Shown: positions 6,297-48,059 of the stretch, piece after piece
Position numbering within the stretch: position 1 is the stretch's first letter
How the letters are laid out: each line of letters starts with the position of its first letter
Origin: an uncultured Clostridia bacterium
GTDB lineage: Bacteria; Bacillota; Clostridia; Oscillospirales; Ruminococcaceae
Reading direction: 5' to 3'
NCBI GenBank assembly: GCA_947588805.1
Contig: CANPYR010000004.1
Location: 1-64,000, forward strand
Length of the DNA stretch: 64,000 bases
Made by a program: the position numbers and the translations under genes
Notes under the pieces: generated by a model
What the model saw: the letters and a program-made list of their open reading frames with translations, nothing else
The model's database searches: none
What the model was told of the DNA's origin: nothing

Positions 6297-6425
6297 ACTT
6301 CTGACATCTGATTTCTGATTTCTAACCCTCTGACATTCTAACCTCTAATCCCCCGCACGTTTAATCGCAGAAACCCATAGTTACAACATCTGACTTCTGA
6401 CATCTGATTTCTGTCCTCTGATAGC
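6297..6425. repeat. Degenerate 7-base tandem repeats (CTGAYWT-like)
   Basis: CTGACTT CTGACAT CTGATTT CTGATTT appears near 6303-6330, and a second run CTGACTT CTGACAT CTGATTT CTGTCCT near 6390-6417. The second run is preceded by gcagaaacccatagttacaac, shared with 36888-36909. The rest of 6040-6426 holds no gene that I can support. Confidence 0.7.
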
Positions 6426-7652: not shown

Positions 7653-7745
7653 CGCGGGGGAGGGGATGGAGCAGGAAACCGGCCGTGAAGCCTGAGAGGG
7701 GGATGAGGACTTCGGAATTTCAGAGGAATTCACGGGCGGGGATGA

Positions 7746-7826
7746 TTAAAAGCAGAGGGTAGACAGTCCCGAATAAAACGGCAAAAGCAGACGAAGAGCA
7801 TACCGCCCCTTTGTGGATATTTTCAT
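7746..7826 (-). pseudogene. Truncated Rrf2-family regulator
   Basis: The minus-strand ATG at 7824-7826, after an AAGGAGGTG ribosome site, encodes MKISTKGRYALR, the signature N-terminus of Rrf2/IscR/CymR-type repressors. The frame then departs from the family and stops after 26 residues, where about 140 are expected. Only the promoter, operator and first half-helix survive. Confidence 0.8.
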
Positions 7827-7841
7827 GGTCTTCACCTCCTT

Positions 7842-7863
7842 TTAGGTTAATAACCTAATTATA
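7842..7863 (-). promoter_or_regulatory. Operator palindrome and -10 of the Rrf2 remnant
   Basis: A perfect palindrome TTAGGTTAATAACCTAA (7842-7858) directly follows a minus-strand TATAAT (7858-7863), as expected for an autoregulated Rrf2 gene. The -35 position (about 7881-7886) falls at the edge of the 122-bp repeat beginning at 7885 and is not consensus. Confidence 0.65.
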
Positions 7864-7884: not shown

Positions 7885-8006
7885 GATGTGGCCAAGGCGG
7901 CCACATCAAGAATACAGAAGTCAGAAGTCAGATGTCAGAACTTCAAGGCGTCGCCTATGGCGACGATTTTAAAAATAATGAATAATGCGGGCGATTTAGA
8001 CGCTCC
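7885..8006 (-). repeat. 122-bp interspersed repeat, copy A
   Basis: Read on the minus strand, this is nearly identical over 122 bases to 38125-38246, 44854-44975 and 46383-46504. It contains CGTCGCC-ATA-GGCGACG, a run of 7-base CTGACWT repeats, and a terminal GATGTGGCC-N5-GGCCACATC hairpin. The hairpin end abuts the promoter of the Rrf2 remnant. Confidence 0.93.
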
Positions 8007-8039
8007 CGGATTTTATTTTTTAAAAGAGAGAGTGTTAGA

Positions 8040-36825: not shown

Positions 36826-37045
36826 CAGGCAAAAGGTTTCTGGGAGCGAAAGCCGCACCTGCGGTTTTATCGCGCCGACTTTTATGCGCAGAAACCTATA
36901 GTTACAACTTCTGACTTCTGATTTCTCAATTCTGTCTTCTAATAGCGCAGGATTCGCTGCTTCTATGCTGAATCTTTACCGACTGCGCCCACCCACCCGC
37001 CCAAGTCCGCTCATCTTGCCGTCCCCTCCCACAAATTTCCCTTCA
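36826..37045 (+). repeat. R2 repeat, partial copy 3
   Basis: Shares with 42770-42985 the blocks gggagcgaaag.cgcac, ttatcgcgccga, CTGACTT CTGATTT CTCAATT CTGTCTT, ggattcgctgc, and accgactgcgcccaccc with ccgctcat. The GC-rich hairpin half is missing. It ends a few bases before the -35 at 37050. Confidence 0.8.
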
Positions 37046-37896: not shown

Positions 37897-38124
37897 GACG
37901 GATGGGAGGCTGACAGGTTTCAAAACCGTAAGCGCCGCTGTTTCAGCATATGAATTTACGGTCAGTACCTCGCTTTACTTCATTCTCAATTCTGCACACC
38001 GTGTGGGAGAGTCCATGCACATATTATTTCAAATTTTTTAAATCCTCGCCGAAGCGAAACCCTGAAATTTTAAAATCCGACTTTCTGACCTTTGTCTTCC
38101 GGACGCGCCGCTTCGGCGCATCTG

Positions 38125-38246
38125 GGAGTGTCTAAATCGCCCGCATTATTCATTATTTTTAAAATCGTCGCCATAGGCGACGCCTTGAAGTTCTGACATC
38201 TGACTTCTGACTTCTGTATTCTTGATGTGGCCGCCCTGGCCACATC
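38125..38246 (+). repeat. 122-bp interspersed repeat, copy B
   Basis: Near-identical to the copies at 7885, 44854 and 46383. The only change in the terminal hairpin is in its loop (GCCCT for GCCTT). It ends 16 bases before the -35 of the parE-like gene. Confidence 0.93.
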
Positions 38247-38262
38247 AGCGCATCTGTCGCTC

Positions 38263-38291
38263 TTGCATTTATTTCAAAAATGTGTTATAAT
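38263..38291 (+). promoter_or_regulatory. Promoter of the parE-parC-like operon
   Basis: TTGCAT (38263-38268), 17 bases, TATAAT (38286-38291). Confidence 0.82.
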
Positions 38292-38344: not shown

Positions 38345-40330
38345 ATGCCGGCTAAAAAAGAATACGGCAACGAAGCTATCCGCTCTTTGAAGGGAGCGGA
38401 CAGAGTAAGGCTGCGCCCGGCGGTCATTTTCGGCTCGGACGGGCTCGACGGCTGCAAGCACTCTGTTTTTGAGATCATTTCCAATTCCGTGGACGAAGCT
38501 AATCAGGGCTACGGCAAAAAGATCTCGGTGACATACTATAACGATCACTCGGTCGAGGTCGAGGATCAGGGCAGGGGCTGCCCGGTCGATTTCAACAAGG
38601 CCGAAAACCGCTATAACTGGGAGCTTGTATACTGCGAGCTTTACGCGGGAGGTAAATACGACAACGCTCAGGGCGGCGGGAATTATGAATATTCCCTCGG
38701 TCTTAACGGTCTCGGAGCCTGCGCTACGCAGTACGCTTCCGAGTATATGGACGTGGAGGTGTACCGCGACGGGTATAAGTATGACCTTCACTTTGAAAAG
38801 GGAGAGAATATCGGCGGTCTCAAAAAAGAGGAGACCAAGCGCCGCCAGACCGGTACCAGAACGCGCTGGCTTCCGGATCTTGAGGTCTTTACGGATATCG
38901 TTATCGAGAAGGAATATTTCTGCGACGTCTTGAAGAAGCAGTCGATAGTGAATCCGGGGATAGAATTCTGTCTGAGATATCAAAACCCCGAGGGGGATTT
39001 CGAGAGCTTCGACTATCTGTATCAAAACGGTATTCTTGATTATGTGAACGAGATCGTGGGGCTTGATTATCTCACCGCGCCGCAGCTCTGGACTGCGGAC
39101 AGAAAGGGCCGCGACCGCGAGGACATGAACGATTATAAGGTTAGATATAACTTTGCGTTCGCATTTTCTAAGACCGTTAAGCTATCGGAATATTTCCACA
39201 ACTCAAGCTTCCTTGAATACGGCGGCTCGACCGAAAAGGCCGTAAGACAGGCTTTCACGAGCTTTTTGGACGGATATCTCAGGCAAAACGGGAAATATCT
39301 TAAAAACGAAGCAAAGATCCAGTATCAGGATATAGAGGACTGCCTTGTGATGGTATCGAGCTCCTTCTCGACTCAGGCTTCGTATGAGAACCAGACCAAA
39401 AAGGCTATAAACAACAAATTCATCTACGACGCGGCTGTGGAATTTTTAAAGCATCAGCTTGAAGTTTATTTCATAGAAAATCCCGAGGACGCGGGAAAGA
39501 TTTGCGATCAGGTGATGATAAATAAGCGCAGCCGAGAGTCCGCGGAGAAGACGAGGATAACCCAGAAGAAGATCTTCACCGAAAAGCTCGACATGGCTAA
39601 TATGGTAAAGAAATTCGTAGACTGCCGCTCTAAGGACGTTGAAAAAAGAGAGCTCTATATCGTAGAGGGAGATTCGGCCTTAGGCTCCGTAAAGCTTGCA
39701 AGAAACGCGGAATTTCAGGCGGTGATTCCGGTAAGAGGAAAAATTCTCAACTGCCTGAAGGCAAGCTATAACAAGATCTTCGAGAGCGAGATCATAACCG
39801 ATCTTATGAAGGTCTTAGGGTGCGGAGTGGAGGTCAAGTCCTCTAAGAATAAGGACCTTTCAAGCTTTAATCTTTCAAATCTGAGATGGTCTAAAATAGT
39901 TATCTGCACCGACGCGGACTACGACGGCTTCCAGATAAGGACTCTTATTCTCACCATGCTCTACACCCTCGCTCCGACGCTTATAGAGAAGGGGTATGTG
40001 TTCATAGCGGAGTCTCCGCTTTACGAGATAAATACAAAGGACAGAACATACTTTGCCTACGACGAGTCGGAGCGCGCGGATATAATGAATAAGATCGAGG
40101 GGCAGAAGTTTACTATCCAGCGCTCAAAGGGACTCGGCGAAAACGAGCCGGATATGATGAGCCTTACAACCATGAACCCCGAGACAAGAAGGCTTATAAA
40201 GGTCGGTCCCGACGAAGCCGAGCATACGAAATTCATGTTCGAGATGCTTTTGGGAGATAACCTTTCCGCAAGAAAGGAATTCATAAATAACAACGGCCAC
40301 GACTATCTCGATATGGCCGACATCAGCTGA
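38345..40330 (+). CDS. parE: Type IIA DNA topoisomerase, B subunit (ParE/GyrB family)
   Basis: The ATPase and TOPRIM subunit of a type II topoisomerase. GHKL ATPase motifs are EIISNSVDEANQG (Asn and Glu of the Bergerat fold), VEDQGRGCPV and GLNGLGACAT; the TOPRIM metal site is YIVEGDSALGS with CTDADYDGFQI. At 661 residues it is in the ParE/GyrB range. I chose the ATG at 38345 over the open frame start at 38303 because GGGGAGG lies 9 bases before it. The A subunit follows after 34 bases. The sequence looks divergent from main GyrB, so this is probably the second, topo IV-like enzyme; it relaxes or decatenates DNA. Confidence 0.9.
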   Translation: MPAKKEYGNEAIRSLKGADRVRLRPAVIFGSDGLDGCKHSVFEIISNSVDEANQGYGKKISVTYYNDHSVEVEDQGRGCPVDFNKAENRYNWELVYCELYAGGKYDNAQGGGNYEYSLGLNGLGACATQYASEYMDVEVYRDGYKYDLHFEKGENIGGLKKEETKRRQTGTRTRWLPDLEVFTDIVIEKEYFCDVLKKQSIVNPGIEFCLRYQNPEGDFESFDYLYQNGILDYVNEIVGLDYLTAPQLWTADRKGRDREDMNDYKVRYNFAFAFSKTVKLSEYFHNSSFLEYGGSTEKAVRQAFTSFLDGYLRQNGKYLKNEAKIQYQDIEDCLVMVSSSFSTQASYENQTKKAINNKFIYDAAVEFLKHQLEVYFIENPEDAGKICDQVMINKRSRESAEKTRITQKKIFTEKLDMANMVKKFVDCRSKDVEKRELYIVEGDSALGSVKLARNAEFQAVIPVRGKILNCLKASYNKIFESEIITDLMKVLGCGVEVKSSKNKDLSSFNLSNLRWSKIVICTDADYDGFQIRTLILTMLYTLAPTLIEKGYVFIAESPLYEINTKDRTYFAYDESERADIMNKIEGQKFTIQRSKGLGENEPDMMSLTTMNPETRRLIKVGPDEAEHTKFMFEMLLGDNLSARKEFINNNGHDYLDMADIS

Positions 40331-42639: not shown

Positions 42640-42985
42640 CGCAGAGCGGGAGGGCGCAGCCCGCGGACGGCCGTATGGCCGGCCGGGCTCGCCGGCCGAA
42701 GGACGGCGAGCCGTGCGCGTCAGCGCACCGGGCTGCGCCCGGGGTGGGAGCCGGAAAGGGAAAGACAAGCAGAAGGTCGTTGGGAGCGAAAGACGCACCC
42801 GAGCATTTATCGCGCCGAGGGGGGAGCGCAGAGGGGTACAGTAAGCAGATCTGATTTCTGATTTCTCAATTCTGTTTTCTGACAGCCGCGGCGGGATTCG
42901 CTGCATATCTACTGAATTACTACCGACTGCGCCCACCCGCCCTCCCTCTCCCGCTCATCCCGCCGCTTTCCCTCGCCAAAACCTC
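42640..42985 (+). repeat. R2 structured repeat, copy 2 (fullest copy)
   Basis: The GC-rich half holds stacked palindromes, including GTGCGC-GTCA-GCGCAC (42713-42728) and CCGGGC/GCCCGG (42728-42742). A unique middle (gacaagcagaaggtcgtt, ggagcgaaagacgc) is followed by the heptads CTGATTT CTGATTT CTCAATT CTGTTTT and an end shared with 36826-37045. It stops at the -35 of the NfeD promoter. Confidence 0.85.
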
Positions 42986-43562: not shown

Positions 43563-44528
43563 ATGTTACCGATAATAGTTTTCGTAGTGGTACTGATACT
43601 TATTTTCGTCATTATCTCAAACTTCAAGATCGTGCCGCAGGCGCAGGTGTTTGTAGTCGAACGTCTCGGCGCTTTCAACCGTGAGCTCCACACAGGTCCG
43701 CACCTTCTCGTCCCGTTCATAGACAGAATAGCGAAGAGGGTGTCGATAAAAGAACAGGTAGCGGATTTCCAGCCGCAGCCGGTTATCACCAAAGATAACG
43801 TCACCATGCAGATAGATACCGTCGTGTTCTTCCAGATCACGAACGCGAAGCTCTACACCTACGGCGTAGAACGCCCGATCGCGGCCATAGAGAACCTTAC
43901 CGCCACGACTCTGAGAAATATAATCGGCGAGATGGAGCTTGACGCTACTCTCACATCGCGCGATACTATCAACACAAAGATCACTGTGATACTTGACGAA
44001 GCGACCGACCGCTGGGGTATCAAGGTAAACAGAGTCGAGCTTAAGAACATCCTGCCGCCGAGAGAGATTCAGGACGCGATGGAGAAGCAGATGAAGGCTG
44101 AACGCGAGCGCCGTGAAAAGATCCTTCAGGCCGAGGGCGATAAGAAGTCTCAGATACTTGTAGCCGAGGGCGAAAAGGAGTCGAAGATCCTAAAAGCCGA
44201 AGCTGATAAACAGGCCGAGATACTTCATGCCGAAGCCGAAAAAGAAGCGATGATACTCCGCGCGAACGCGGTCAGGGAGCAGAAGATCCTTGAGGCGCAG
44301 GGCGAAGCGGAAGCGATAGAAGCCGTACAGAGCGCGCTTGCGGAGAGCATAAAGAAGCTCAACGCGTCTAATCCGAACGAGCGAGTAATAGCGCTTAAGT
44401 CGCTTGAAGCCTTCGGCAAGGCCGCTGACGGCAAGGCGACGAAGATAATAATCCCGAGCGAGATCCAAGGTCTTGCGGGATTGGCGTCGAGCCTGAAGGC
44501 GCTGACGGAGGACGGAAAGACGGAGTGA
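43563..44528 (+). CDS. SPFH/stomatin-like protein (paraslipin, QmcA type)
   Basis: A 321-residue protein: one N-terminal membrane helix (LPIIVFVVVLILIFVII), an SPFH domain (IVPQAQVFVVERLGAFNREL, VSIKEQVADFQPQPVITKDN), then a long Ala/Glu/Lys coiled coil with AEGEKESKILKAEADKQAEI-type repeats, and a short C-terminal helix. Such proteins form membrane-anchored oligomeric cages and scaffolds with an NfeD partner, which is present just upstream. GCGAGG fits the ATG at 43563 better than the one at 43557, which is too close to it. Confidence 0.93.
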   Translation: MLPIIVFVVVLILIFVIISNFKIVPQAQVFVVERLGAFNRELHTGPHLLVPFIDRIAKRVSIKEQVADFQPQPVITKDNVTMQIDTVVFFQITNAKLYTYGVERPIAAIENLTATTLRNIIGEMELDATLTSRDTINTKITVILDEATDRWGIKVNRVELKNILPPREIQDAMEKQMKAERERREKILQAEGDKKSQILVAEGEKESKILKAEADKQAEILHAEAEKEAMILRANAVREQKILEAQGEAEAIEAVQSALAESIKKLNASNPNERVIALKSLEAFGKAADGKATKIIIPSEIQGLAGLASSLKALTEDGKTE

Positions 44529-44599
44529 ATTAAGGGAACCGGAGCGGGGGAGATTTAGGATAAAGAATTTTGGGGCGGAGGAGTTGGGGATATAAAAGG

Positions 44600-44637
44600 T
44601 CCCGCGGTCTTTACATGATAGGCCGCGGGATATTTTT
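44600..44637 (+). terminator. Terminator after the SPFH gene
   Basis: TCCCGCGG and CCGCGGGA arms followed by TATTTTTG. Confidence 0.85.
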
Positions 44638-44789
44638 GTCGGTGATGAAGAGGTATTATAACTTAATTACTTACTACTCCTGAATTTCACTTTCGGTGAA
44701 AAGCAAGCCGGTATAAAGCGGCGGCGAGATTCTCAATCTTTCATTGTGATAATATAATTTCCGGATAAATTCAAAGCCGTTTAAAACTT

Positions 44790-44840
44790 AATCTCCAATC
44801 TCTAATTTCTATTTTCTATTTTCTAATCTCTGATTTCTGC
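44790..44840 (+). repeat. Degenerate 7-base tandem repeats
   Basis: Runs such as ATTTCTA TTTTCTA TTTTCTA ATCTCTG ATTTCTG with period 7, next to copy C of the 122-bp repeat. Confidence 0.6.
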
Positions 44841-44853
44841 TTTCCCCCGCCCG

Positions 44854-44975
44854 GGAGTGTCTAAATCGCCCGCATTATTCATTATTTTTAAAATCGTCGC
44901 CATAGGCGACGCCTTAAAGTTCTGACATCTGACATCTGACTTCTGTATTCTTGATGTGGCCGCCTTGGCCACATC
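44854..44975 (+). repeat. 122-bp interspersed repeat, copy C
   Basis: Same 122-base sequence as copies A, B and D with a few substitutions. It ends 17 bases before the -35 of the SGNH lipoprotein gene. Confidence 0.93.
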
Positions 44976-44992
44976 TTCCCCGCCCCCACATA

Positions 44993-45021
44993 TTGACATC
45001 ACATTGACAATGTGCTATAAT
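44993..45021 (+). promoter_or_regulatory. Promoter of the SGNH lipoprotein gene
   Basis: TTGACA (44993-44998), 17 bases, TATAAT (45016-45021). A second TTGACA lies inside the spacer. Confidence 0.87.
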
Positions 45022-45055
45022 ATTTTTAACTAAATATAATATCGGAGGTCTTACC

Positions 45056-46312
45056 ATGCTTAAAAAATTTATTCCCGCTGTTATCTGCGCTTCGATCTGT
45101 TTCGGGATCTCGGGCTGCGGCGCTTCCGAGGAGGTGAGCCGGCTCGCCGACGCTCCGGAATCAGACGGGTGGAGCTGTATCTTTACCGCCGCGACTCAGC
45201 CTTCTAAGGTCGATATGATGCCGAAAAATCCGCATCTTTCCGACTCGACCTGCCGTCAGGAGCTTCGGGCTTCTATGTCCGGATCGAAAATCCGTCTCAC
45301 ATTTTCAAACGAGCATTCCGAAACCCTTGATCCTCCCGGCTCGGATCTTGTGATCGAGTCGGTGCACGTCGCGAAGCTTCTTAAGCCGGGCGAGCCTGAT
45401 ATCGATACCTCGACCGATACCGTAATTACGTTCGGCGGTTCCGAGAGCGTGACGGTGGCTTCCGGGGAAACTGCCACCTCGGACGGCGTGGATTTTGAAT
45501 TCTCCGCGCTTGAATATTTGGCGGTAACGGTAAAATTCGGCTCAGTTCCATCCTTCCCGGCGGTGCATCAGGAAGCCGACTGCGCAAGCTGGGTAGTGAG
45601 CGGGAACCACGTGAGCGAGAACTTCAGTCCTACCGAATGGATGTGGAGTTACTTCTCGCTTTGCAGAGCGGACGGTTATAATGAAGGCTCCGAGACTCTT
45701 GTCTGTTTCGGGGATTCCATCACCGACGGCTCTATTTCGACCTGGAACGGCTTTGACGCATGGCCTGACGTTTTGGCAAACGAGCTTCAGTCGGATCCCG
45801 GGACCTCGCATATTTCCGTCGTTAATACCGGGATCGGCGGCAACGCGATCTGGGGCGGCGCAGGGATGCCGGCAAAGGAAAGATTCAAGCGGGACGCTAT
45901 AGATATCCCCGGGGTAAGAAGCGTGATAATACTTATCGGCACAAACGATATCCCCGGCGCGCAGACCGATACCTCGCAGGACATGATAAACGAATATAAG
46001 GCGATGATAAACGCCTGCCACGAAAAGGGGATAAAGATCTACGCGGGAACGATAACGCCGTTCGGCTCGAACGAGTGGTGGGAATCTGAGCTCCACGAGA
46101 GCGTAAGAGAAAAGGTAAACGACTGGATGAGAAGCGACGGCAGCGGTTTCGACGGGTATATAGATTTTTACTCGGCGGTAGCTGATCCCGATTCGCCGAA
46201 CAAATTAAAAGCCGAATACGATTCCGGAGACTGTCTGCACCCGAGCGCAAAGGGTCATAAGGCGATGGGAGAGGAAGCGGCGAAGGCATTAAAAGGGTAT
46301 TTGGGGAAATAG
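45056..46312 (+). CDS. SGNH/GDSL-family hydrolase, lipoprotein
   Basis: A 418-residue protein with a lipoprotein signal ending ISGCGASEE (Cys21). Residues about 40-205 form a beta-rich accessory domain; residues about 210-418 carry the SGNH blocks CFGDSITDGS (Ser about 220), NTGIGGNAIWG, IGTNDIPG (Asn) and DCLHPSAKGHKAM (catalytic Asp and His about 392-395). Such enzymes deacetylate or de-esterify polysaccharides or lipids outside the membrane. GGAGGT precedes the ATG. Single gene, between repeat copies C and D. Confidence 0.92.
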   Translation: MLKKFIPAVICASICFGISGCGASEEVSRLADAPESDGWSCIFTAATQPSKVDMMPKNPHLSDSTCRQELRASMSGSKIRLTFSNEHSETLDPPGSDLVIESVHVAKLLKPGEPDIDTSTDTVITFGGSESVTVASGETATSDGVDFEFSALEYLAVTVKFGSVPSFPAVHQEADCASWVVSGNHVSENFSPTEWMWSYFSLCRADGYNEGSETLVCFGDSITDGSISTWNGFDAWPDVLANELQSDPGTSHISVVNTGIGGNAIWGGAGMPAKERFKRDAIDIPGVRSVIILIGTNDIPGAQTDTSQDMINEYKAMINACHEKGIKIYAGTITPFGSNEWWESELHESVREKVNDWMRSDGSGFDGYIDFYSAVADPDSPNKLKAEYDSGDCLHPSAKGHKAMGEEAAKALKGYLGK

Positions 46313-46382
46313 GCGAGCGGCGAACAAATAATATCCGATATCTGAATTCTGCCGTCCGGCTTCTTGACACGTCCGTTCAGGA

Positions 46383-46504
46383 GGAGTGTCTAAATCGCCC
46401 GCATTATTCATTATTTTTAAAATCGTCGCCATAGGCGACGCCTTGAAGTTCTGACATCTGACTTCTGACTTCTGTATTCTTGATGTGGCCGCCTTGGCCA
46501 CATC
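46383..46504 (+). repeat. 122-bp interspersed repeat, copy D
   Basis: Identical to copy C over nearly all of its length. It ends 16 bases before the -35 of the GH26-like gene. Confidence 0.93.
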
Positions 46505-46520
46505 TCGTTCAGGCCGCGTC

Positions 46521-46549
46521 TTGACATTCCCATGAATTTAGTATATTAT
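46521..46549 (+). promoter_or_regulatory. Promoter of the GH26-like gene
   Basis: TTGACA (46521-46526), 17 bases, TATTAT (46544-46549). Confidence 0.8.
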
Positions 46550-46610
46550 ATCAATACCACACCCCGCTCAACCCCTTTTAAACTTCATCACACATTTGGA
46601 GGATCCGAAA

Positions 46611-48059
46611 ATGGAAGTAAAAAACACTCTTGAAAATCTTAAGACATATTCCCTGCACATGGGAAAAGCGAAATGCGCGGTCGATTTAGGCGACGGCAGC
46701 GAAAGAGGAGAATATGTTAATCAGGACTATATCCTTTCTAAGCTCGGCAGACCCCACCGCGCGATAAATCTTATGTACTGCTACTACCCGCTCGACGAGG
46801 GATGGCCGGAAAGGGCTTCCGTCGCATTTCCTTCGACCGATTCTTCTAACGCCTGGGGATATCCCTACGACGACTATTTCCCCTATAGGGGAGGTCTTGA
46901 CGGCGATAAGAACGCCGAGGTCTTCGAGCAGATGAGGGATATACGCAGGCACGGCCAGGACGTGATCTTTACTCTTACCGTCGATCCGCACGTCTCGGAC
47001 GACCGGCTTATAGCGATAGCGGAGGATCTCAGACCGTTCGGAAGAGTCATGATGAGAATAAATCACGAGTGCACGGGGAGCTGGTTCAGCTTCAATAAGC
47101 GCTGCACATATAAAGAAGTAGCGGATTTCTTTACGAGATTTTCAAAGATCGTCCACGAGCACGCCCCCAACGTAAAAACGATCCTCTGCGCGGGAGCTTA
47201 CAGAGGACGCGAGGGAAAGCTCGAGATGGAGGAGCTTTTCATGGAAGCCGCGAAGGAGACCGATATCTGGTCTATAGATCAGTATTTCACCCTACACTAC
47301 GGATACCCGAACGACATAGCCGAAAAGGGCGGCCACAGCTATACCTATAACGGAAACGAGCCGGTCTGGAATTCGGTCAGGGATACGCTTAAGAGATACC
47401 GCGAGATAACAGGTCAGGATAAGCCGATGGTAATGAGCGAGCTGAATACCGACGGAGACGTTACCGGCCCTTACGATCAGGCGAAGATGGTAAGAGCGTT
47501 CTGCGAGAAGATAAGGGATGAAAAAGCCGACTGGCTCTCAGGCTTCACTTTCTACCAGTTCCGCGATCAGGGAAGGCTCGGACTTGAGTTTGAGGATCCT
47601 AATAATAAAGAGGTCGGGATCGAGTGGCCGATACTTCGGGACTATAAGGAAATAATCTCCGACGACTGGTTTAAGCCTGAAATGACGGTAGGGGAGGAGA
47701 TAAAGCTTCCCGCAAGACTTCGCTGGGGCGGCTCAGAGGACGCGGAGGGAATAGCTGTCCCGATTGAATTCGAGGGCGATCCGACGTTCTGCGAGCTGTA
47801 CTTTGAGGGAGAGGAGAACCTGATGATAGAAATAAACGGCAGGTGGTTCTATAAAGCTCCGAAGACCAAGTTTGTGGATCTTATGCCGGCCTTCTTTGAT
47901 TCCCGACTTGACGGCAAAAAGACTCTGACTCTTAAGCTTTTCGCACCTCCCGCAAGCGGCGAAAACGACGTCCCCGCGAGCACGGATACATATTCTACGC
48001 TGAGCGCTCTTCCAAAAATAAGGATAAGATACGAGCCGGTACAGGCCTTCACATTTTAG
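46611..48059 (+). CDS. Glycoside hydrolase, clan GH-A (GH26-like), no signal peptide
   Basis: A 482-residue protein starting at ATG 46611 after GGAGGA. A TIM barrel covers residues about 40-340: MRINHECTGSWFSFNK resembles the GH26 block RPxHExNGxWFWW, whose Glu is the general acid, and VMSELNTDG (about residue 277) supplies a candidate nucleophile. The C-terminal about 130 residues form a separate beta domain. With no signal peptide it should be cytoplasmic, acting on an imported oligosaccharide, perhaps a mannoside. The exact family is uncertain; GH39 or a related clan-A group is possible. Confidence 0.65.
   Translation: MEVKNTLENLKTYSLHMGKAKCAVDLGDGSERGEYVNQDYILSKLGRPHRAINLMYCYYPLDEGWPERASVAFPSTDSSNAWGYPYDDYFPYRGGLDGDKNAEVFEQMRDIRRHGQDVIFTLTVDPHVSDDRLIAIAEDLRPFGRVMMRINHECTGSWFSFNKRCTYKEVADFFTRFSKIVHEHAPNVKTILCAGAYRGREGKLEMEELFMEAAKETDIWSIDQYFTLHYGYPNDIAEKGGHSYTYNGNEPVWNSVRDTLKRYREITGQDKPMVMSELNTDGDVTGPYDQAKMVRAFCEKIRDEKADWLSGFTFYQFRDQGRLGLEFEDPNNKEVGIEWPILRDYKEIISDDWFKPEMTVGEEIKLPARLRWGGSEDAEGIAVPIEFEGDPTFCELYFEGEENLMIEINGRWFYKAPKTKFVDLMPAFFDSRLDGKKTLTLKLFAPPASGENDVPASTDTYSTLSALPKIRIRYEPVQAFTF

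Follow-up and report, generated by a model that had tools for sequence, protein, structure and literature searches.

The window analysed here, i.e., a stretch of 64,000 nucleotides of contig CANPYR010000004.1 from an uncultured Clostridia bacterium of the Ruminococcaceae, contains four copies (A to D) of a short repeat located just upstream of the promoters of different genes, which raises the question of what places the same sequence so regularly beside a promoter. Three readings had been put forward in the first-pass annotation, i.e., a mobile element with a strict target preference, a regulatory module bound by a protein, and an insulator blocking upstream transcription. The analysis described below indicates that the repeat is very probably a promoter-targeted MITE that would be moved in trans by an IS1-like transposase of the same genome.

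The coordinates of the four copies and of the features surrounding them are reported in Table 1. The copies share about 98–99% identity with the reference copy, as had been claimed for the 122 bases originally delimited, and the true ends lie one base further out on each side. Measured from these true ends, the fixed spacing described for copies B, C, and D holds as well (15, 16, and 15 nt from the -35 hexamer, respectively), and each of the three copies is flanked by a target duplication of 8 bp. Copy A does touch its own promoter, in the -10 region; since the same promoter sequence is present in a relative (locus L055), where TTGAAA is kept 15 nt from the element (as judged by eye), the stretch containing the -35 has most likely been lost at copy A. 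Behind the promoter of copy A, a minus-strand frame (7700–7840) with the start MKISTKGRYALRL, which we take to resemble that of an Rrf2/IscR-type regulator, soon breaks off and is possibly a remnant. Another repeat family of about 135 bp is located in the window at 36886–37021 and 42826–42965 (with a partial copy at 6365–6425); it contains a conserved GGATTCGCTGC block and CTGACTT-like tracts resembling the interior of the 122-bp element.

Table 1. Positions of the element copies, target duplications, promoters, and genes within the window.
Feature	Positions	Strand	Basis or remark
Copy A, 122-bp element	7885..8007	minus	right end at 7885, pointing leftwards; BLAST, nhmmer
-10 hexamer TATAAT adjoining copy A	7858..7863	minus	sequence
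Decayed older element copy, stacked directly upstream of copy B	38005..38117	plus	nhmmer 52 bits, E 1.8e-15
Left target duplication of copy B, GCGCATCT	38116..38123	plus	sequence
Copy B, element	38124..38246	plus	BLAST, nhmmer
Right target duplication of copy B, GCGCATCT	38248..38255	plus	sequence
Promoter TTGCAT-17-TATAAT of the ParE-type gene, 3' of copy B (15 nt)	38263..38291	plus	sequence
GyrB/ParE-type topoisomerase gene, downstream of copy B	38345..40330	plus	PF00204, PF00986, PF01751
Left target duplication of copy C, CCCCGCCC	44845..44852	plus	sequence
Copy C, element	44853..44976	plus	BLAST, nhmmer
Right target duplication of copy C, CCCCGCCC	44978..44985	plus	sequence
Promoter TTGACA-17-TATAAT, 16 nt from copy C	44993..45021	plus	sequence
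GDSL/SGNH-type hydrolase gene, downstream of copy C	45056..46312	plus	PF13472, PF00657
Weak element fragment abutting copy D upstream	46330..46381	plus	nhmmer 16.9 bits, E 1.7e-4
Left target duplication of copy D, CGTTCAGG	46374..46381	plus	sequence
Copy D, element	46382..46505	plus	BLAST, nhmmer
Right target duplication of copy D, CGTTCAGG	46506..46513	plus	sequence
Promoter TTGACA-17-TATTAT, 15 nt from copy D	46521..46549	plus	sequence

The element is about 124 bp long, i.e., short, non-coding, and bounded by terminal inverted repeats, the features by which MITEs are recognised. Its true ends read GGGAGTG...CACATCT and are unequal, the left repeat (GGGAGTGTCTAAATCGCCCGCAT) and the right repeat read inward (AGATGTGGCCAAGGCGGCCACAT) being identical at 14 of 23 positions; over the copies sampled (see below), 12–15 of the 23 positions are identical in 76 out of 101, with a median of 13/23 for this family (family I). 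The interior (about 66–99) contains 7-base CTGACTT/CTGACAT units in variable number. Both palindromes of the element remain paired in 96 distinct copies, including some two-sided changes that may be shared by descent, and the right palindrome is the same stretch as the right terminal repeat.

A BLAST search of the genome of origin (2.0 Mb, 53 contigs, 86% complete) with the repeat gave 42 matches, and in 24 cases the match covers the whole or nearly the whole length at an identity of at least 90%; a search with the left-end pattern gave 25 matches, every one of them on a copy already known from BLAST. The repeat is present in 12 of the 31 genomes of the genus and absent from all the 29 genomes searched alongside that belong to other genera. 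The plasmid and phage collections gave no match to it, and an Rfam scan of the region 44500–47000 (around copies C and D) returned no family at E 1 or better. Spacing and duplications were analysed on 101 unique full-length copies (31 from the genome of origin and 70 from 10 other genomes of the genus), which represent a large sample from fetched loci rather than a census; 43 partial copies and 10 full rows with a score of 70 or less were left out before counting.

A target duplication of at least 7/8 bases flanks 63 of the 101 copies, versus 16 out of 10,100 mismatched flank pairs, in which the left flank of one copy was paired with the right flank of another; the other 38 copies show no clear duplication. 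The start of the -35 hexamer is located 15 nt beyond the right end in 25 copies and 16 nt beyond it in 33 (58/101), all other positions being occupied by 0–4 copies each. When promoters were predicted outward from each end by means of a simple in-house -35/-10 score, a sigma-A-type promoter at 14–16 nt was found in 62/101 right flanks and 14/101 left flanks, random positions giving 1.04%; in the genome of origin, the corresponding figures are 25/31 and 3/31. The predicted promoter lies on the right side only in 57 copies, on the left side only in 9, on both sides in 5, and on neither in 30, the bias between right-only and left-only copies being strong (P 6e-10). The same orientation that the first-pass annotation had attributed to the copies is thus retained as a strong bias (57 vs. 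9 of 101) but not as an absolute rule, given the 9 left-only copies and the 5 with promoters on both sides; the random orientation and spacing that it had named as evidence against its reading did not emerge from the 101 copies. Where the promoter lies 15 or 16 nt away, no base of the stretch separating the element from the -35 exceeds 61%, except for the C directly preceding the -35 (68 and 82%); the conservation of the -35 and -10 hexamers is partly a selection effect, the copies having been picked by these hexamers. Since the spacer is hardly conserved, the sequence indicates that the element has no promoter of its own and stops at a set distance from a promoter belonging to the host.

The same can be observed at a single site by comparing genomes with and without the element upstream of the ParE-type gene. 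The start of this gene was located in 30 of the 31 genomes of the genus, and a promoter match is present upstream of it in 26 of the 30 genomes aligned, an element profile match within about 330 bp upstream being found in just five. The right end of the element in the genome of origin and the -35 are separated by 15 nt; G022 contains a reversed copy whose decayed end is about 15 nt from the promoter, in G004 and G020 decayed or variant elements end less than 15 nt from it (alignment extrapolated in all three cases), and in G017 the match is far upstream of the promoter. The aligned genomes indicate that the parE promoter exists in host DNA without the element, whose presence or absence at one site is what is expected of a MITE. 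The target duplications, the inverted repeats, and this presence/absence at one promoter support the first of the three original readings, i.e., a mobile element with a strict target preference, and the repeat is accordingly described here as a non-autonomous miniature element and not as a fixed regulatory module.

A mobile origin might be followed by a function, and it could be supposed that, after a targeted insertion, the palindromes of the MITE have been co-opted to protect the promoter from transcription or regulators acting from upstream. Each insertion displaces the DNA upstream of about -52, leaving the core promoter in place, and the hairpins persist; however, no T-run was seen by eye 3' of the hairpins in the downstream direction, and the right palindrome, being the same stretch as the right terminal repeat, may have been retained for the sake of transposition instead. 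Co-option of this kind is therefore considered unlikely, even though the element may have an insulating side effect.

A candidate for the enzyme moving the element was reached through relatives with a longer interior. Elements sharing a similar left end (L205, L207, and L189, the last ended by a contig end) led to an insertion sequence of 0.85–0.91 kb (907 bp in L205) harboring two ORFs. The left and right repeats of L205 are identical to those of the MITE at 18/23 and 19/23 positions, respectively, and the two elements are alike at their ends only (matches of 25–34 nt); L205, L219, and others would represent the autonomous relatives with similar ends that are expected for a MITE. ORF A and ORF B match the IS1-family model NF033558 at positions 1–80 (E 3e-15) and 94–199 (E 5e-8), respectively, so that an InsA-like zinc ribbon and an InsB-like DDE domain are encoded by two consecutive ORFs, as in IS1. 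The element is referred to as IS1-like because its scores fall below the curated IS1 cut-offs (NF033558, 56.5 and 33.1 bits vs. 100 for the whole; PF03400, 21.8 vs. 24.1; PF03811, 26.0 vs. 26.1). In alignment A1, NF033558 is matched by all the nine ORF B proteins and is the only NCBIfam model that they match at E 0.001. The structure model of ORF B (pLDDT 69.8) is predicted to adopt a DDE/RNase H-like fold: the 50 listed of its 428 PDB matches are DDE transposases or retroviral integrases, with a moderate best E of 9e-4 and a TM of at most 0.48 by query length among those 50. In IS1 of E. coli the two ORFs are joined by a programmed -1 frameshift; in the element described here, the junction could be read in 12 copies, 8 of which contain an A7C run at the ORF overlap, and the frame of ORF B is +1.

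The insertion sequence was detected by DNA search, whole or in clear pieces, in 8/12 MITE-bearing genomes of the genus and in 0/19 MITE-free ones (raw counts that ignore kinship, with G010 and G020, whose matches do not exceed 34 nt, left out of the count of insertion-sequence carriers). In four MITE-bearing genomes (G009, G015, G016, and G020) the DNA search gave no insertion sequence beyond short end matches, and in G028 it gave end pieces only (56–66 nt), mostly at contig ends. In the genome of origin, an apparently intact copy (L219) is flanked by a 9-bp duplication, CGCGCTTTT, and lies 16 nt from a TTGACT -35. Elsewhere in the genus, copies L220 and L223 lie between exact duplications of 8 bp, 15 nt from a -35, and copy L249, with a duplication of 9 bp, lies 16 nt from a promoter. 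Among the copies of the genus with two ends, a promoter at 15–16 nt is found at an end in 5/11 and an exact 8-bp duplication in 3/11; among the rows with one end, such a promoter is found in 2/13 (L206 and L228 being the same copy). In the genus, the promoter can lie beside either end of the insertion sequence.

An alignment scan with ORF B over named genomes disclosed 42 loci, including MAGs of uncultured Clostridia (from samples named Lapin, presumably rabbit gut), Ruminococcus, Angelakisella, and Oscillospiraceae. Four copies were found in Ruminococcus sp. Marseille-P6503, each of them flanked by an exact 8-bp duplication and, at its ORF B end, by a -35 at a distance of 15 nt. More generally, in distant relatives (55–69% protein identity) a promoter at 14–16 nt is present at 12 of the 19 located ends, versus a background of 2.0% (P 2e-16), the ORF B-side ends having been located from the stop codon with a regular expression written after those flanks had been seen. 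Of the 31 distant loci, 12 had been dropped (four at contig ends and eight without a recognisable end). The 12 ends include the four Ruminococcus copies, which share length and ends; each of the 12 is therefore an insertion site of its own, but the inserted elements are not all distinct. At three further distant loci (L257, L258, and L265), TTGACA is located at 15–16 nt with no -10. When duplications were searched for automatically over 34 loci, the only reliable pairs were those of L249, L250, L259, and L261–L264. The mobile-element reading is further backed by this full-size insertion sequence, which resembles the MITE at its ends and shares its target.

Related miniature families were also detected. 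Family II is about 112 bp long and has more symmetric ends (median of 17/23 identical positions); after merging copies listed on both strands, 13 of its 32 copies show target duplications, versus 6/992 in the control, and a promoter at 14–16 nt was found beyond the right end of 11 copies and beyond the left end of 6, the other 15 having none at either end. The comparison of its orientation (11 right to 6 left) with that of family I (57 to 9) gave a Fisher P of 0.07, which weakly supports the idea that symmetric ends lead to random orientation. A third, hairpin-rich family is present in G004 and G022 (L147, L130, L140, and L156); its copies with two visible ends measure about 290 bp, and its left end, GGGAGTG, resembles that of the MITE.

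Other transposases were considered as mobilisers of the MITE. A p-MULT 3 transposase was the first hypothesis, derived from the target behaviour of TnGBS and ISLre2, and it was set aside because none was found over cut-off in the genus: NF033529 gave no such hit in the 31 genomes (two weak cross-hits correspond to an IS256-like and an ISL3-like gene), versus 28 out of 391 genomes of the class, and PF06782 gave none in the genome of origin (86% complete), the control genomes being likewise silent; the PF06782 search was also extended to 148 genomes of the family. One weak NF033529 match, L061, looks like an ISL3-type gene, judging from its sequence. ISKra4 (NF033572) was considered as well, since the target is common to some ISKra4 elements; the weak matches to this model, in genomes that also contain the MITE, are IS256-like genes by sequence. 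Such genes occur in several MITE-bearing genomes, and IS256 was rejected as the source of the MITE ends, the IS256 of the genus running from GATAAGG to ...TTACC, unlike the MITE; in contrast to the IS1-like element, a promoter at 14–16 nt was found in none of its five located copies (one of the six loci was dropped, its ends not being found). An IS256-like transposase fragment (L209) is also present in the window, at about 1–650 on the minus strand.

It could still be argued that a p-MULT 3 (ISLre2/TnGBS-type) transposase moves the MITE and that the IS1-like element merely resembles it. For p-MULT 3, a target distance of 15–17 bases, duplications of 8–9 bp, and oriented insertion are reported in PMC3942029, and in three of the four clear-ended ISLre2 copies from other Clostridia (L167, L168, L180, and L185) the right end is, by eye, 16 nt away from a -35-like hexamer. 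Against this stand the searches described above and the IS1-like element itself, which has similar ends and the same duplications and spacing, and the proposal appears very improbable. Two of the ISLre2 copies (L180 and L185) also show, by eye, AGTGT-like end letters.

Hardly credible, finally, is the idea that the repeat is a regulatory module (a binding site, an UP-like element, or an insulator) under selection upstream of promoters, which would account for the fixed spacing, the biased orientation, and the paired palindromes (with the caveat on shared descent given above) but not for the target duplications, the occurrence of both orientations, the weak conservation between element and -35, the scarcity of the element upstream of a widespread ParE-type promoter, and the full-size insertion sequence with the same target. 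The protein-bound module and the insulator of the first-pass annotation hence found no positive evidence, the promoter lying in host DNA independently of an element that occurs in both orientations.

The promoter-targeted MITE moved by an IS1-like transposase might operate as follows. The two-ORF DDE transposase of the related insertion sequence would cut and join the unequal ends of the MITE, and would join them to host DNA through a staggered cut of 8–9 bp about 15–16 nt upstream of a sigma-A -35 box, with the right end most often facing the promoter. We infer this mobilisation in trans from the similar ends, the shared target, and the co-occurrence of the two elements. If the -35 hexamer starts at about -36, strand transfer would take place at roughly -52 to -44, i.e., in the DNA bound by the C-terminal domain of the polymerase alpha subunit. 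To find the site, the transposase might dock on the RNA polymerase sitting at the promoter or on the stretch of DNA that the polymerase contacts, and the spacing points to guidance by the promoter or by the bound polymerase. As the promoter-side duplication and the promoter would remain intact, the gene would keep its core promoter and the same site would stay open to new hits; elements might stack because the duplication leaves the promoter-side target intact. The decayed copy upstream of copy B and the fragment abutting copy D fit repeated hits at one promoter. A bolder version, to which we assign even chances, is that the IS1-like transposase independently evolved an RNA-polymerase-guided insertion, using the sigma-A holoenzyme as a ruler and inserting at about -52; the guide would serve MITEs too and would converge with p-MULT 3 on one docking platform, where elements pile up and the promoter is left unbroken.

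These elements would provide many natural insertion sites that mark promoters, together with a small two-ORF transposase suitable for biochemistry, and they might account for short repeat families located 5' of genes, which one would otherwise take as regulatory modules.

As for known systems, the IS1 family shares with the element described here a short length, a zinc-ribbon ORF followed by a DDE ORF, duplications of 8–9 bp, and consecutive NF033558 ranges, whereas the element is divergent, scores below the curated cut-offs, and has ORF B in the +1 frame. We know of no strict promoter-proximal insertion for classical IS1. The open-licence literature, to which the search was directed (subscription papers lying outside its scope), gave no recognised report of promoter-targeted insertion by the IS1 family or of the 122-bp repeat, and within that literature promoter targeting by an IS1-like element appears to be new. 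Bacterial MITEs such as the Correia elements are likewise short, non-coding, present in many copies, provided with terminal repeats, and often located upstream of genes; however, the review PMC10969869 reports that Correia elements carry promoters, whereas the element described here sits outside a host promoter at a set distance. Promoter-anchored insertion in bacteria has already been published for Mutator-like transposases. For p-MULT 3 (TnGBS and ISLre2), Guerillot et al. 2014 (PMC3942029) describe insertion about 15–17 bases upstream of the sigma-A -35, with 8–9 bp duplications, unequal ends, and one end facing the promoter. The MITE and the insertion sequence share the distance (15–16 nt here), the duplications, and the unequal ends, a likeness of behaviour and not of membership, since the transposase here is IS1-like and is encoded by two ORFs in an element of less than 1 kb, in a genus where no p-MULT 3 gene was found over cut-off. 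The same distance in an IS1-like lineage across several groups of Clostridia suggests that the transcription machinery has been adopted convergently to guide landing, a situation similar to that of the yeast Ty elements at Pol III genes.
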